Assembly: GCA_017522515.1 (NCBI GenBank)
Contig: JAFWZH010000001.1
Location: forward strand, 1-8,470
Length of the DNA stretch: 8,470 bases
Direction of reading: 5' to 3'
DNA from: Clostridia bacterium
Lineage (GTDB): Bacteria; Bacillota_A; Clostridia; UBA1212; UBA1255
The notes under the pieces are model-generated. The model saw nothing but the letters and a program-made list of their open reading frames with translations, searched no databases and was not told where the DNA came from. The position numbers and the translations under genes were made by a program. Position 1 is the first letter of the stretch. Every line of letters begins with the position of its first letter. Below, one piece after another: positions 1 through 6,771 of the stretch.

Positions 1-2
1 AA

Positions 3-203
3 TACAGAATAAGCGGAACTGATCAGATTGACACCGCAAGAGAACAAAGAGAAGCAAACAAAATTTATTTGGTATTCAAATTATTCAAGAGTAACAGTGC
101 CGAAAAAGAGATGCTTGCTTACAGATGGACTAATCTTGGGGGCACAAGACCTCACACCGAGAACCTTGTAAAACTAATTTCTAGAGCCAAGAAAATTCAT
201 TGA
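3..203 (+). CDS. C-terminal fragment of an unrecognised protein, running off the left edge
   Basis: The frame starting at base 3 is open for 66 codons from the window edge to a TGA at 201-203. It encodes a basic, soluble-looking tail with many Lys and Arg residues, ending in SRAKKIH. No signal peptide, membrane segment or catalytic motif is visible in the part present. The other two plus frames close within the first 21 bases, and the residue composition looks coding, so I think it is a real gene end, but 66 codons could be open by chance. I do not recognise the family. A restriction or mobile-element gene would suit the neighbouring methyltransferase remnant, but nothing in the fragment shows this. 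No obvious terminator follows; the first structure downstream is the hairpin at 217. Confidence 0.45.
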   Translation, partial: YRISGTDQIDTAREQREANKIYLVFKLFKSNSAEKEMLAYRWTNLGGTRPHTENLVKLISRAKKIH

Positions 204-216
204 CAGCAATAATAGC

Positions 217-263
217 CATTTGTCCGACGGTTACAAAATTAATTTGTAAGCCTCGGATATATG
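217..263. repeat. 47-bp imperfect palindrome, copy A
   Basis: Outer arms of 11 bp are CATTTGTCCGA at 217-227 and TCGGATATATG at 253-263 (9 of 11 pair). A 3-nt internal loop follows on each side, then a perfect 7-bp inner stem (TTACAAA 231-237 with TTTGTAA 243-249) and a 5-nt loop. Same architecture and same total length as copies B and C. Confidence 0.8.
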
Positions 264-295
264 GTTAAGATAGATTAGTACTTGGGAATAGCTAT

Positions 296-342
296 CATTT
301 GTCCGAAGCAATTAGAAAAATTCTAATACCCTCGGACAAATG
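296..342. repeat. 47-bp imperfect palindrome, copy B (best copy)
   Basis: The 11-bp outer arms pair perfectly: CATTTGTCCGA at 296-306 with TCGGACAAATG at 332-342. A 4-nt internal loop on each side is followed by a perfect 7-bp inner stem (ATTAGAA 311-317 with TTCTAAT 321-327) and a 3-nt AAA loop. The inner stem differs in sequence from copies A and C but keeps its pairing. Confidence 0.85.
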
Positions 343-400
343 CTCTGTAGATGTCTCTGACTCAGGAGTACACTTGTCAATTTTAGTACAGAAAGAAACC

Positions 401-447
401 CATTTTTCCGATACTATCCGAAAAATTTGGATACCTCTGGACAAATG
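401..447. repeat. 47-bp imperfect palindrome, copy C
   Basis: Outer arms lie at 401-411 and 437-447 (8 of 11 pair, with the GGACAAATG end kept). The internal loops are 3 nt. The inner stem is 8 bp with one G-T pair (TATCCGAA 415-422 with TTTGGATA 426-433) and a 3-nt AAA loop. Total length is again exactly 47 bp. Confidence 0.75.
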
Positions 448-605
448 AGTCTCTCACATTCTAATGTTGCTTCAACCGTTAAACATCAACATCCTTCAAC
501 GGCGCTCCATAGTTGCAGTGGCGTCCCATGAAGCCGTGTTTGATACTGGGGGAGATTGAGCCTCTAGGTGTTTACACCAATATCGGGCGATGATGAAGCT
601 ATTTC

Positions 606-728
606 TGGGCCAGGTGGACTAAAAAGCCTTCCACCGGGCCCAAAACATAAACCACAAAACACTAATTAACAATCATTTACCCATGAGCAAGTGGGCCCGG
701 TGGAAGCAAAACAAATCCACCTGGCCCG
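606..728. repeat. Pair of mutually inverted G+C-rich palindromes around a 49-bp AT-rich spacer
   Basis: Copy 1 (606-642) has 12-bp arms GGGCCAGGTGGA at 607-618 and TCCACCGGGCCC at 630-641. Copy 2 (692-728) has GGGCCCGGTGGA at 693-704 and TCCACCTGGCCC at 716-727. Each copy can fold on itself with one mismatch and an 11-nt loop. Across copies the pairing is perfect: 607-618 with 716-727 and 630-641 with 693-704. The block can therefore form either two small hairpins or one long nested one. The spacer is AT-rich. Function unknown; an invertible segment or the ends of a miniature element are possible. Confidence 0.75.
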
Positions 729-786
729 ATTGGGCGCCTGAGAACACACCAGTTCCGCCCATTTCCAGTGGCTCCCGCCACTACCC

Positions 787-828
787 ATACAGAAAACAGA
801 GCCCCGACAAAGGCTCTGTTTTCTGTAT
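787..828. terminator. Perfect 17-bp hairpin, bidirectional-terminator type, without an obvious gene
   Basis: The stem is 787-803 paired with 812-828 without a mismatch, around an 8-nt loop. The G+C core (GAGCC/GGCTC) is flanked by an AAAA tract on the left and a TTTT tract on the right, the usual layout of a rho-independent terminator working in both directions. The gene it once served is not recognisable. It lies just upstream of the methyltransferase remnant. Confidence 0.7.
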
Positions 829-858
829 AAAGGACGGCAATGATTTCCTCTCCTCTGA

Positions 859-1305
859 AATGCTCAAGCAAGCTTGGCATTCCGCTCGGCTCCTCATCAT
901 TTTCCTGATGCAATATGCACAGAAAATAATGCAGTTCCATTGCGAAAAGTTATTAACAGACTTGATATTGAGGAGCAAAAATATTATTTTTCTCAAAAGG
1001 CAGTTCAGGGCGTAAAAAATGCTAAAAACAATATGAAGAGAGGACTTTGGCAAGATCTAAATGCTCCCTGTTTAACTTTGACTTCACATTTGGCAAAGGT
1101 TAGTATCAACTCCCGCGATCCAATTTTATTGGTTGATGCTAATAGGGAGTTGTATCTACGCTTTACTCCTCGTGAGGAAGCACGTATCCAATCTTTCCCA
1201 GATACATTTAAGTTACATCCATCAGAGGCAAAGTCGTATAAACAAATTGGCAACGCAATCCCTCCTGTGATGATGTGGTACATAGCACGCAACTTGATAA
1301 AATAG
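859..1305 (+). pseudogene. Cytosine-5 DNA methyltransferase, C-terminal remnant
   Basis: DNA C5-cytosine methyltransferases move a methyl group from S-adenosylmethionine to cytosine, usually as the modification half of a restriction system. This frame is open after a TGA at 856-858 and has no ATG start; the first usable codon is a TTG at 874. Numbering from that TTG, residues 20-88 resemble the region around the target-recognition domain. Residues 96-112 are a clear motif IX (RFTPREEARIQSFPDTF), and residues 121-131 are motif X (SYKQIGNAIPP). The family usually has 300-450 residues. The N-terminal two thirds, with the SAM-binding motif and the Pro-Cys catalytic loop, is absent from every frame upstream, where a hairpin-rich G+C-richer patch sits instead. 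It cannot methylate DNA alone. Most likely the gene was cut by insertion or recombination at about 860-930. Identity of the family is secure; the specificity is unknown. Confidence 0.85.
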
Positions 1306-4141: not shown

Positions 4142-4516
4142 ATGGAAAGGGTTATTATAACAATCAGCGAAAGCGGCAAAGTGAATATTCCAAGCGGCAA
4201 TGTATGGATGTCTGAAATGGAATTGGTGGAGTTGTTCGGGGTGGCAGCCCCGACACTCCGAGCAACCATCAGAGCGATATATAAGAGTGGAACACTTAAC
4301 CCTACAACAACTCAACGATGCGATTTTACCACTCCTAAAAGTTAGGCTACATTCTACAATCTTGAAGTAATCATAGCGCTTGCGTTTAGGCTGAACTCAT
4401 ACAAGGCGTGTAAGATAAGACAAAAGGTATTGAATAGTTTATGCCAGCGAAAAAAGGCAGATATTAACTTGTTGATTTCTCTAATTAACAAACACCCCAA
4501 ACAACAAAAGGTCTAA
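4142..4516 (+). pseudogene. Small conserved gene downstream of the integrase, interrupted by an amber codon
   Basis: The frame starts at ATG 4142, 11 nt after the integrase stop. It reads 67 codons, meets TAG at 4343-4345, and stays open in the same frame to TAA at 4514-4516 (124 sense positions counting the amber). The first part contains NVWMSEMELVELFGVAAPTLRATIRAIYKSG. The part after the amber contains YNLEVIIALAFRLNSYKACKIRQ. Both look like parts of one helical, probably DNA-binding small protein that I recall as common near Bacteroides integrases. No base gain or loss is needed to join them, so this is a single nonsense change, with a poorly matching linker just before it (TLNPTTTQRCDFTTPKS). 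It could be a dead gene, or the 67-residue product may still act. Function unknown. Confidence 0.75.
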
Positions 4517-4701: not shown

Positions 4702-6099
4702 ATGCTAATTCGTTTTTCAGTAGAGAATTTTCTATCTTTTAAGGATAGGGTGACTTTTTCAATGCTGCCAGGAAAAGGAATGTTGAAGAAGGAGCATAAA
4801 GCAGATGCCGTTAATGGTGTCAGAGTATTGAAGACAAGTGTTGTTTTCGGTGCAAACGCATCGGGTAAGTCAAATCTAATAAAAGCAATGGCATTTGGTA
4901 AACGAATGATCATTGAAGGAACTCCGTCTAACTTGCCTATTGAATACAGTAAGTTTCGATTGGATGTAGAATGCTTGAATAAGCCTAGTAGGATGGAATA
5001 TGAGATACAAATTTTAAATAAGAACTATGCCTACGGCTTTGTTTTCAATAATGAATTAATATTAGAAGAGTGGTTATATGAAATAAGCAAAAAGGGAGAG
5101 GTAAAAATATATGAAAGAATACAACAAGACAACATTTTTGATATTAATTACTTATTAAAGCAACAGGATAAAGAAGAGGAACGTCAGTTCTTAAATTTCC
5201 TATGCAAAGCAACTCCTAATAATCAATTGTTTTTACATGAAATCCTTACACGAAAAGTAAAAAGCAATGTAACAAACATACGCGACTTAGAATTGGTTCT
5301 TAGTTGGTTTATAACTACATTAACCATTATCTTTCCATCTGACAAATACAAACAAGGAATCAAACTGATGGCAGCAGCTGATAATGATAAGTTGAAACAG
5401 TATTATTCCGGTTTGTTAAAATATTTTGATACTGGTATTGAAACAATATGTCTTCAAACCGTCAAAGAGGAAAAACAAACAATTCCTAGCGAATTATTGG
5501 AGCGCATAAAAATGGATTTATTGAAACAAGATGATGAAAATTCAAGAGTGCTTTTAACTAACCAACGAGACAGTTATATTATTTCGTTAGACAACAAGTC
5601 AAAAGGCTCTGAGCGTTTAAAACTCAAAGTGCAAAAGTTTATGACACAACATGCAGTTAGTGGAGACTCGAAAAATGCTTATTTTGATATTGCAGACGAG
5701 TCGGATGGCACTAATCGCATAATTGACTATATACCTTTAATCATTGACTTAATAAGAGGTAATAAAGTTTTTCTAGTTGATGAAATGGAAAGAAGTTTGC
5801 ATCCTAATTTGATATATGATATTTTTGATATCTTTTTAAGCAATTGCGATGGCGTTAATAGTCAATTAATTGTTTCCACACACGAATCCTCTTTACTTAC
5901 TCAAAAATTGTTACGAAAAGATGAAATTTGGTTTATTGTTAAAGACGGACGAGGAGTAAGTCATATTCATTCTTTGGAAGATTATAATATTAGATTTGAC
6001 AAAGAAATACGCAAGGATTACCTCCTTGGAAGATATCGAGGTGTTCCAAGATTGGGTGATAGACAAAATTTAGATTCACTATTTGATATAAAGAAATAG
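4702..6099 (+). CDS. AAA/ABC-type ATPase of the AbiL (AbiLi/RloA-like) defence family
   Basis: A 465-residue cytoplasmic ATPase. It opens with the SMC/ABC-like MLIRFSVENFLSFKD. Walker A is GANASGKS at residues 50-57. A signature-like SDGTNR is at 334-339, Walker B is VFLVDE at 356-361, and a switch His is at 394 in STHES. Residues about 100-330 are a helical insertion between the two ATPase halves. The C-terminal LLGRYRGVPRLG (441-452) is typical of ATPases paired with RloB proteins. In known two-gene systems of this type the ATPase senses infection and controls the partner nuclease-like protein, leading to abortive infection. The partner here starts 3 nt after this stop. ATG 4702 fits the conserved MLIRF-type start and follows an AT-rich leader; there is no Shine-Dalgarno sequence. 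The ATPase call is firm, the defence role is by family. Confidence 0.9.
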   Translation: MLIRFSVENFLSFKDRVTFSMLPGKGMLKKEHKADAVNGVRVLKTSVVFGANASGKSNLIKAMAFGKRMIIEGTPSNLPIEYSKFRLDVECLNKPSRMEYEIQILNKNYAYGFVFNNELILEEWLYEISKKGEVKIYERIQQDNIFDINYLLKQQDKEEERQFLNFLCKATPNNQLFLHEILTRKVKSNVTNIRDLELVLSWFITTLTIIFPSDKYKQGIKLMAAADNDKLKQYYSGLLKYFDTGIETICLQTVKEEKQTIPSELLERIKMDLLKQDDENSRVLLTNQRDSYIISLDNKSKGSERLKLKVQKFMTQHAVSGDSKNAYFDIADESDGTNRIIDYIPLIIDLIRGNKVFLVDEMERSLHPNLIYDIFDIFLSNCDGVNSQLIVSTHESSLLTQKLLRKDEIWFIVKDGRGVSHIHSLEDYNIRFDKEIRKDYLLGRYRGVPRLGDRQNLDSLFDIKK

Positions 6100-6102
6100 C
6101 GT

Positions 6103-6771
6103 ATGCCAAGAGAAGCACAGGAACTTGTAAGACAAGGTGGTTTCAAGGATGCGGAAAAATTTTTCATCCTATCATTTGAGGGAACCGTTACAGAAAAGCG
6201 TTATTTTGAGTCATTAAGAGCATCAAGTTTATTTAATGATTGTGGATTAATTGAGACTATTCCTTTAAGTAGAAAAAAAACTGCGGCATTAGGTTCAAAT
6301 CCTAATGTGGTAAAATCTTTACTCAAGGCAGCAAAGGAAGAATTTAATTTCCGTTCAACGGATGAGTTTTGGTTAATTATTGATAGGGACCAGTGGGAAA
6401 GCATTCATCATATTGATTTATCTAAATTAGTAGAAGACTGCAAGAATGAAGATAATTTCTTCATAGCAATGAGTAACCCATGCTTTGAAATATGGTTAAT
6501 ATTTCATCATACTGATTTGACGAGATATTCAGAAGATGAACTAAATAAGATCAAAGAAAACATTAAGATTTCTAACAAGAAACACCATATAGATACTGTA
6601 TTGGAAGAATTGATAGGTCATGCATACAATAAAAGACCTAAAGCGGAAGATTTCATTCCTCATACTTATTCGGCCATTAGAACAGCAGCCAAGTATCACG
6701 TAGAAGGAGAAGATTTACCTACAAATATTGGATCAGATGTATATATTTTAGTGCGAAAGCTTATTAAATAA
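6103..6771 (+). CDS. RloB family protein (AbiLii-like), partner of the ATPase
   Basis: A 222-residue protein that is probably the effector of the ATPase pair. Motifs in order: LSFEGTVTEKRYF at 23-35 with acidic Glu26 and Glu31; WLIIDRDQW at 90-98 with the DxD pair Asp94 and Asp96; the family hallmark SNPCFEIWLIFHH at 124-136 with Glu129; and a C-terminal NIGSDVYILVRKL segment (208-220). An EG motif followed by a DxD after a beta strand resembles a TOPRIM metal-binding nuclease core, as in the OLD/Gabija type and the PARIS AriB proteins. That link is my inference from motif order. RloB genes were named from restriction-linked loci, and ATPase plus RloB corresponds to the AbiL layout. The start lies 3 nt after the ATPase stop, so translation is probably coupled. 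All key residues appear present. Confidence 0.9.
   Translation: MPREAQELVRQGGFKDAEKFFILSFEGTVTEKRYFESLRASSLFNDCGLIETIPLSRKKTAALGSNPNVVKSLLKAAKEEFNFRSTDEFWLIIDRDQWESIHHIDLSKLVEDCKNEDNFFIAMSNPCFEIWLIFHHTDLTRYSEDELNKIKENIKISNKKHHIDTVLEELIGHAYNKRPKAEDFIPHTYSAIRTAAKYHVEGEDLPTNIGSDVYILVRKLIK

Follow-up and report, generated by a model that had tools for sequence, protein, structure and literature searches.

Palindromes within rhuM genes and in an orphan array as predicted recognition sites of RhuM-family proteins

The stretch of DNA analysed here, hereafter the window, comprises 8,470 nucleotides of contig JAFWZH010000001.1 from a Clostridia bacterium, and carries three palindromes that probably serve, on the strength of sequence comparison, as recognition sites for proteins of the RhuM family (PF13310; PDC-S05). 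Together they form an orphan array in a window without an intact rhuM gene. The sites, their location within rhuM genes of other genomes, the link between the RhuM recognition helix and the half-site, and the array itself were all computed.

The three palindromes of the window

The palindromes are located at positions 217..263, 296..342 and 401..447 (no strand assigned), each being 47 bp in length, and none of 200 dinucleotide shuffles yielded any, which bears out the three palindromes of equal length described in a first-pass annotation. All follow the pattern CATTTGTCCGA-N25-TCGGACAAATG, with two, zero and three mismatches, respectively, to the 11+11 arm consensus, hence only the middle copy has perfect arms, as had also been described. 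Site 1 (arms CATTTGTCCGA / TCGGATATATG) has its two mismatches in the outer arms and contains the t-type half-sites GTTACAAA..TTTGTAA, a type that accompanies QQN/QQD recognition helices; site 2, with its perfect outer arms, contains the g-type half-sites AATTAGAA..TTCTAAT of the VPT helix type; and site 3, with three outer-arm mismatches, contains the c-type half-sites TATCCGAA..TTTGGATA of the DVRT helix type. Identical copies of the inner sequence were found in L046 and L061 for site 2, and in L046 and L097 for site 3 (here and below, L and G numbers denote surveyed loci and genomes). Single-strand DNA folding of sites 1, 2 and 3 gave -10, -13.3 and -5.7 kcal/mol, with z values of -4.9, -8.3 and -2.4, the last of which marks site 3 as a weak hairpin.

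Elsewhere in the window, a frame at 874-1305 matches the C-terminal part only of a C5 DNA methylase, and a RhuM-like N-terminal HTH frame with an internal stop (4142-4420; 33% identity to the RhuM of L021) lies 3' of the integrase gene. An AAA ATPase gene and an RloB-like gene (4702-6771), followed by an HNH gene, match the AbiLi and AbiLii models and are likely a defence pair. A nested inverted repeat is present at 607-727, in which GGGCCAGGTGGA/TCCACCTGGCCC (identified by eye) enclose CTTCCACCGGGCCCA/TGGGCCCGGTGGAAG; no Rfam match was obtained at that place, the single match within the window being below the gathering score and located elsewhere.

Distribution of the palindrome

The first-pass annotation had anticipated further copies in Bacteroidales, and these were recovered when genome contigs were scanned with 10-base arms, yielding at least 119 stretches, with 77 of the 80 among the matches listed originating from Bacteroidota. 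The gap between the arms was 25 in 116 of 121 perfect-arm copies (gaps of 23-27 being considered). A total of 146 copies with up to three mismatches were retrieved, a set that takes in the window's three copies plus a few chance-like ones, with 61 located in rhuM-matching sequence (genes and fragments) and 85 outside; L026 and L124 yielded no copy. Within one Bacteroidales family, 31 of 251 genomes matched, with at most two copies each, whereas reversing the pattern gave matches in 3 of 251.

A pattern scan of viral contigs returned 20 stretches, all judged to be chance, including that of L017, which has a 25-base gap and arms that stop short of CATTTGTCCGA, whilst a distant DNA search of plasmids with window positions 1-1000 returned no match. 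A DNA search of phage records returned one match, MT835963.1 (L021), in which the palindrome lies within an open RhuM gene (PF13310, E 2.5e-103) and codes HLSDAIRKIRIPSDKW; the N-terminal part of the protein is DinD-like, and no XRE family was among its Pfam matches. The record is named ‘Bacteriophage sp.’ and has BrxL together with the palindrome-bearing rhuM, hence it may represent a mobile element and not a phage. Palindromes of 47 bp with CATTTGTCCGA arms characterise a subclade of Bacteroidales whose RhuM carries a fused DinD-like domain. Selfish palindromic insertions of the Rickettsia RPE type bring extra sequence into genes relative to their homologues. Such an origin was rejected for the rhuM palindrome, in that the palindrome-coded peptide aligns, with no extra sequence, to native columns of RhuM proteins that are without CATTTGTCCGA.

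Recognition helix and half-site in the 47-bp class

In rhuM, the palindrome constitutes the wing codons of a winged helix-turn-helix, directly 3' of the recognition-helix codons. An AF2 model placed the recognition helix at 169-182 and the wing strands at 191-195 and 204-209 (mean pLDDT 67.5; 86-89 for the recognition helix and 51-66 for the wing), and a sequence search of solved structures gave a best E value of 0.37. The helix class was known in 58 of the 61 rhuM copies, the other three being without an in-frame helix, and 57 of the 58 obeyed a rule of one helix class per site type, the site-type classes having been defined after inspection of the data. The sole exception, L082, combines a VST helix with a VPT-type site. 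It was found that QQN/QQD helices accompany the half-site TTACAAA, VPT helices ATTAGAA, DVRT helices TATCC, VPN/IPD helices ATTAAAA and STI/NTI/TTI helices ATTCGAA, with a single VQD copy accompanying ATCAAAA. The inner types of the window are all present in rhuM coding sequences at the wing codons, where the t, g and c types account for 21, 22 and 7 of the 61 copies and are the three commonest in the 47-bp class. No obvious fit to this helix-site code was apparent for palindromes beside divergent 340-aa RhuMs.

The Mantel test and tree were restricted to the 31 of 61 copies of sufficient length. Site distance tracked helix distance with the other two protein parts removed (partial Mantel r 0.726; 0 of 2000 permutations), noting that in the 47-bp class a stretch of about 80 bp holds both helix and site, such that linkage alone could pair them. 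In close pairs of equal backbone identity, helix identity was 0.99 where the site type was the same (40 pairs) and 0.65 where it was different (114 pairs). A tree inferred from the rest of RhuM required 17 type changes, against a mean of 17.3 on shuffling, where 114 of 200 runs gave a count as low, and the type differs between L062 and L076 although the tree parts used are the same in both; an independent-pairs test on this tree had only one or two usable pairs and no power. When L062 was compared with L025, 27 of 39 DNA differences over approximately 1.5 kb fell within 83 bp holding the helix codons and inner palindrome, a sharp block seen in this closest pair only, the other readable pairs differing along the whole gene.

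A dyad and helix-site code across the RhuM family

Other rhuM genes contain a shorter dyad of about 27 bp at the same codon, without CATTTGTCCGA. A panel was assembled from 64 best-scoring loci, not a random draw, of which 62 had an open RhuM frame; 10 of its 32 Bacteroidota genes had been seen in an earlier dyad test, and its 30 Clostridia genes were fetched later. The dyad at that codon stood out from other centres of the same gene (p<=0.05) in 61 of the 62 genes, comprising 31/32 from Bacteroidota and 30/30 from Clostridia, the exception being L191 (p 0.083); p-values across genes are not independent, since the sequences are related. Synonymous-codon shuffles, in which the protein is held constant, were exceeded at the same threshold in 53 of 62 genes (Bacteroidota 25/32, Clostridia 28/30), with the inner arms only of the 47-bp class giving a weak result in this test (12/46). 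In one Bacteroidales family, PF13310 was matched in 181 of 251 genomes, and in one Clostridia class in 50 of 245.

Across the panel, the more alike two helices were, the more alike were their half-sites (partial r 0.546; 0 of 2000). Half-site letters were also predictable from the other phylum, with a score of 0.77 using the nearest helix, as compared to 0.63 using the pre-HTH part, 0.56 using the C-terminal part and 0.49 at random. The pairings of helix and half-site included KSTISRH with GTTGCA, DRST..RH with TGTGCA, SKSNVSEH with GTTCGG, SRTNVVEH with TGTCGG and KQN with TGTCAAG. Six plasmid rhuM genes, hand-picked from a list of 40, were also inspected. In a scripted scan, the code was obeyed in three Pseudomonadota genes, those of Roseicitreum and Thiodictyon having KQN with TGTCAAG and that of Rhodobacter having KSVISRH with GTTGCA (rank p of the dyads 0.031, 0.0005 and 0.0006, respectively). 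The scripted motif missed two of the six, from Roseomonas and Monoglobus, which were judged by eye to have perfect nine-base arms, and the Ligilactobacillus dyad was weak (p 0.063 by rank and 0.006 by codon shuffle).

Scans were also begun from the DNA. The pattern TGTTCGG-N5-CCGAACA matched in 29 of 251 genomes, against five for the reversed pattern, and 19 of the 29 loci examined (from 30 places) were in rhuM-like sequence; when divided by a plain A/T-only rule for the centre, these amounted to 17/23 with A/T-only centres and 2/6 with others. Similarly, TGTTGCA-N5-TGCAACA matched in 36 genomes against one for the reversed pattern, with 11 of the 30 loci examined (from 42 places) in rhuM-like sequence, being 11/16 under the same rule with A/T-only centres and 0/14 with others. 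Perfect SKSNV-type dyads outside rhuM-like sequence were observed in L277, L292, L293 and L298, and may be extra orphan sites.

Orphan arrays and their possible roles

The array of the window is intergenic and has one site each of the t, g and c types, corresponding to QQN, VPT and DVRT helices. The same three-site array, in order and spacing (79 and 104/105 bp), was found in L046, L065, L118 and L120, with partial forms elsewhere. Conservation over nine loci was 0.96 for site 1, 0.92 for site 2 and 0.84 for site 3, compared with 0.87 for the spacer between sites 1 and 2 (264..295, no strand assigned, within the 79-bp spacing), 0.815 for that between sites 2 and 3 (343..400, no strand assigned, within the 104/105-bp spacing), and 0.71 and 0.78 for the flanks. 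In L032, L046, L065 and L120 this array, designated array A, follows MobC, a relaxase and a small gene of unknown kind, the MobC and relaxase families having been checked on L065 only. The small gene, ‘c30’, has no Pfam family, and the window retains a remnant of its C-terminal tail at 479..545 on the minus strand, ending GRHCNYGAPLKDVDV, with limits that are approximate and set by eye.

A second array is located downstream of a dnaK or Mob_Pre-type gene (the latter assignment checked on L055 only) and consists of a c/t site, a g-type site and an SKSNV-like dyad. The half-site scan around orphans detected the SKSNV-like dyad in six loci, all of one homologous array, which therefore represent one event. 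Genes of dnaK type were observed in 29 loci (of L022-L140; Hsp70 confirmed on L042), with recurrent rhuM, AlbA_2-type genes and palindrome arrays downstream.

Two simple relations between arrays and rhuM were rejected. Insertion of array A into rhuM at its palindrome was considered, and in the genomes of L032 and L065, where array A is joined to a rhuM 5' part, the matching 3' part was not found. Strict mutual exclusion of arrays and palindrome-bearing rhuM was also considered, and G273 has both, as does L060 within one locus.

As for the role of the arrays, we infer a decoy, a target or response element, or a relic. That the orphan arrays, including that of the window, are now non-functional, decaying relics left behind by earlier rhuM loci or by an old control region, is a serious possibility to which we assign rather less than an even chance. 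Sites 1 and 3 of the window have two and three outer-arm mismatches, a decay that favours a relic for this particular array, and several neighbours are gene fragments. When 11 genomes with an array or orphan copies were searched using a long RhuM query, three (G273, G274 and G275) gave a full-length RhuM match without interruption and the other eight did not, rhuM pieces adjoin some copies, and site 3 is no better conserved than the spacer between sites 1 and 2. Against this, the order, spacing and inner types of the three sites are retained in several genomes, sites 1 and 2 exceed both spacers and flanks in conservation, and three adjacent sites of different specificity do not amount to the remains of one gene.

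Alternative explanations for the palindromes

If another protein bound the palindromes, the RhuM helix would co-travel with them merely as a DNA neighbour, as might be read from the single 83-bp block of the closest pair and from the same few types occurring on many backbones. This appears quite unlikely, in that the same helix motifs and half-sites are paired in Bacteroidota, Clostridia and Pseudomonadota, which are too distant for block linkage, and in the panel the segments before and after the helix predicted the site far less well (partial r 0.05 and 0.17) than did the helix (0.55).

The first-pass annotation had likened the palindromes to folded single-strand recombination sites of the integron attC type or to REP-type palindromes. 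Flank families do join different partners through the palindromes, and this mosaic pattern, along with the recurrent position downstream of dnaK and the stem covariation described below, would suit attC-like sites. Nonetheless, such sites are very improbable here. The number of copies per genome was 1-3 in 14 genomes and 1-4 in a further count of 11, nearly always at one locus per genome (two in G164 and G273), which suits neither proposal and differs from the many dispersed copies of a REP/RAYT-style element. Recombinase genes do not recur in the vicinity of the copies, the one recurrent cluster, of phage-type integrases, being found in five loci at a median of 5.3 kb and never within 500 bp. 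No integron integrase was detected near copies, the window's own integrase (402 aa, with an arm-binding domain) being phage-type and scoring 46.7 bits against a cut-off of 265 with the integron model. The core boxes of attC are GTTRRRY / RYYYAAC, and none was seen by eye at the ends of the arm consensus CATTTGTCCGA..TCGGACAAATG. In the junctions that were compared, the inner palindrome remains wholly with one side and the change lies in the outer flank alone, for which reason site-specific recombination, the first reading of the mosaic flanks, was abandoned; breakpoints at the outer arms could equally have arisen by ordinary deletion between repeats. The site is, moreover, in frame within intact rhuM genes.

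It had also been suggested that selection acts on the fold, since the inner stems all pair, which is true of the window and not in general. An alignment (A2) of 77 orphan copies (67 distinct), omitting the chance-like L051, L106, L113 and L125 and all copies whose gap differed from 25, had a stem covariation of 0.145 against 0.106, above all 500 column shuffles, and 84.6% of stem cells paired against 82.4% in shuffles (1/500 as high), a control that does not preserve relatedness. However, 19-26 of the 67 distinct rows were unpaired at columns 15/33, 16/32, 17/31, 19/29 and 22/26, and 49 of 67 at 14/34. Some palindromes mix different half-site types, and because many copies hold two different, non-pairing half-sites, selection on the fold is the poorer explanation; the inner stems are more readily understood as a DNA-binding dimer's half-sites that co-vary with its recognition helix. 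The accompanying suggestion that the conserved outer arm is a protein-binding site appears to have been right.

That the rhuM dyad arises from mutation (template-switch quasi-palindrome correction) or from the wing amino acids, rather than from DNA binding, is scarcely credible, since the dyad exceeds synonymous shuffles in most panel genes at one codon position in two phyla and a bias would fail to match each recognition helix, notwithstanding that the wing peptides are themselves nearly symmetric and that changes of template-switch type exist. Of the latter, L118 (739-785) and L120 (2672-2718) have a site 2 with flanks similar to those of L046 and its inner 25 bases in the opposite orientation, and site 2 of L054 has been perfected, changes that look like template switching or arm-to-arm recombination.

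Comparison with known systems and a predicted mechanism

The nearest likeness to the predicted RhuM sites is found in C.Kpn2I, a restriction-modification controller whose site lies within its own coding region and acts as an elongation roadblock (PMC6237814). Its authors raised the possibility that intragenic control is widespread among C.Kpn2I-like proteins, having searched the region within 50 bp on either side of the gene start (PMC6237814). Both would be DNA-binding regulators in a restriction-modification context with an intragenic site, and RhuM resembles C proteins as an HTH protein (a wHTH in the model) with a dyad in its own gene in 61 of 62 cases. The two are nevertheless unrelated, C.Kpn2I being an XRE-domain protein and RhuM a PF13310 protein with a winged helix. 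The RhuM site lies approximately 200 bp into the gene (approximately 580 bp in the long form), where the codons specify the wing of a protein of 330-470 aa, and RhuM further differs from C.Kpn2I by its family-wide helix-site code and orphan arrays. The DdrC protein of Deinococcus (7udi, 8u1j) was also counted among the closest known systems.

RhuM (PF13310) has been proposed as a toxin domain and reported near restriction-modification genes (PMC3710099), and is listed in PADLOC as the candidate defence protein PDC-S05, the models of which are matched by the protein of L087. Five of the six plasmid rhuM genes have a DNA methyltransferase gene as a neighbour and, on the other side, a gene for an S subunit or a helicase, L273 being the one that does not. 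The accessible parts of the literature on RhuM as a toxin domain or as PDC-S05 contain no mention of a DNA site or self-site, and no RhuM self-site was found in the open-access literature, a scope outside which most subscription journals fall. Related reports are PMC9040807, PMC7449626, PMC5771137, PMC5704556 and PMC12707154.

From the helix-site link and the position of the palindrome, we infer binding and autoregulation. A RhuM dimer would bind the palindrome inside its own gene and, once bound, may form a controller-type roadblock that limits transcription of rhuM and of downstream genes in the same, often restriction-modification, operon. Pressure against cross-control would then diversify helix and site as a single block. 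For C proteins, operator specificity sets the exclusion (incompatibility) groups of restriction-modification systems, as described in PMC3874152, and such operator-defined groups would favour the joint diversification of helix and operator; for RhuM this applies by analogy alone. RhuM proteins of several specificities may dock, or may once have docked, at the array of the window, which is perhaps a mobilisable element's decoy or response element.

A wider extension, which we regard as unlikely, casts RhuM and the arrays as opponents in a conflict among mobile elements, involving a self-reading gene, decoy or antidote arrays, and module swapping. Under such a conflict the gene itself, as the one strong site in most genomes checked, would signal its own presence to RhuM, and the arrays of rival mobilisable elements, with one site per common specificity, would capture RhuM. 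Capture might let these elements replace or coexist with rhuM loci (G273 holds both), to which RhuM lineages could respond by exchanging the helix-plus-site module.

RhuM, commonly encoded close to bacterial defence genes and without an assigned function, now has a predicted intragenic DNA target, and the helix-to-base code appears readable enough for the target to be predicted for members of the family. Intragenic operators, as described for C.Kpn2I-like proteins, are suggested to be a family-wide design in an unrelated protein, whilst arrays of sites with multiple specificities beside mobilisation genes represent possible decoys.
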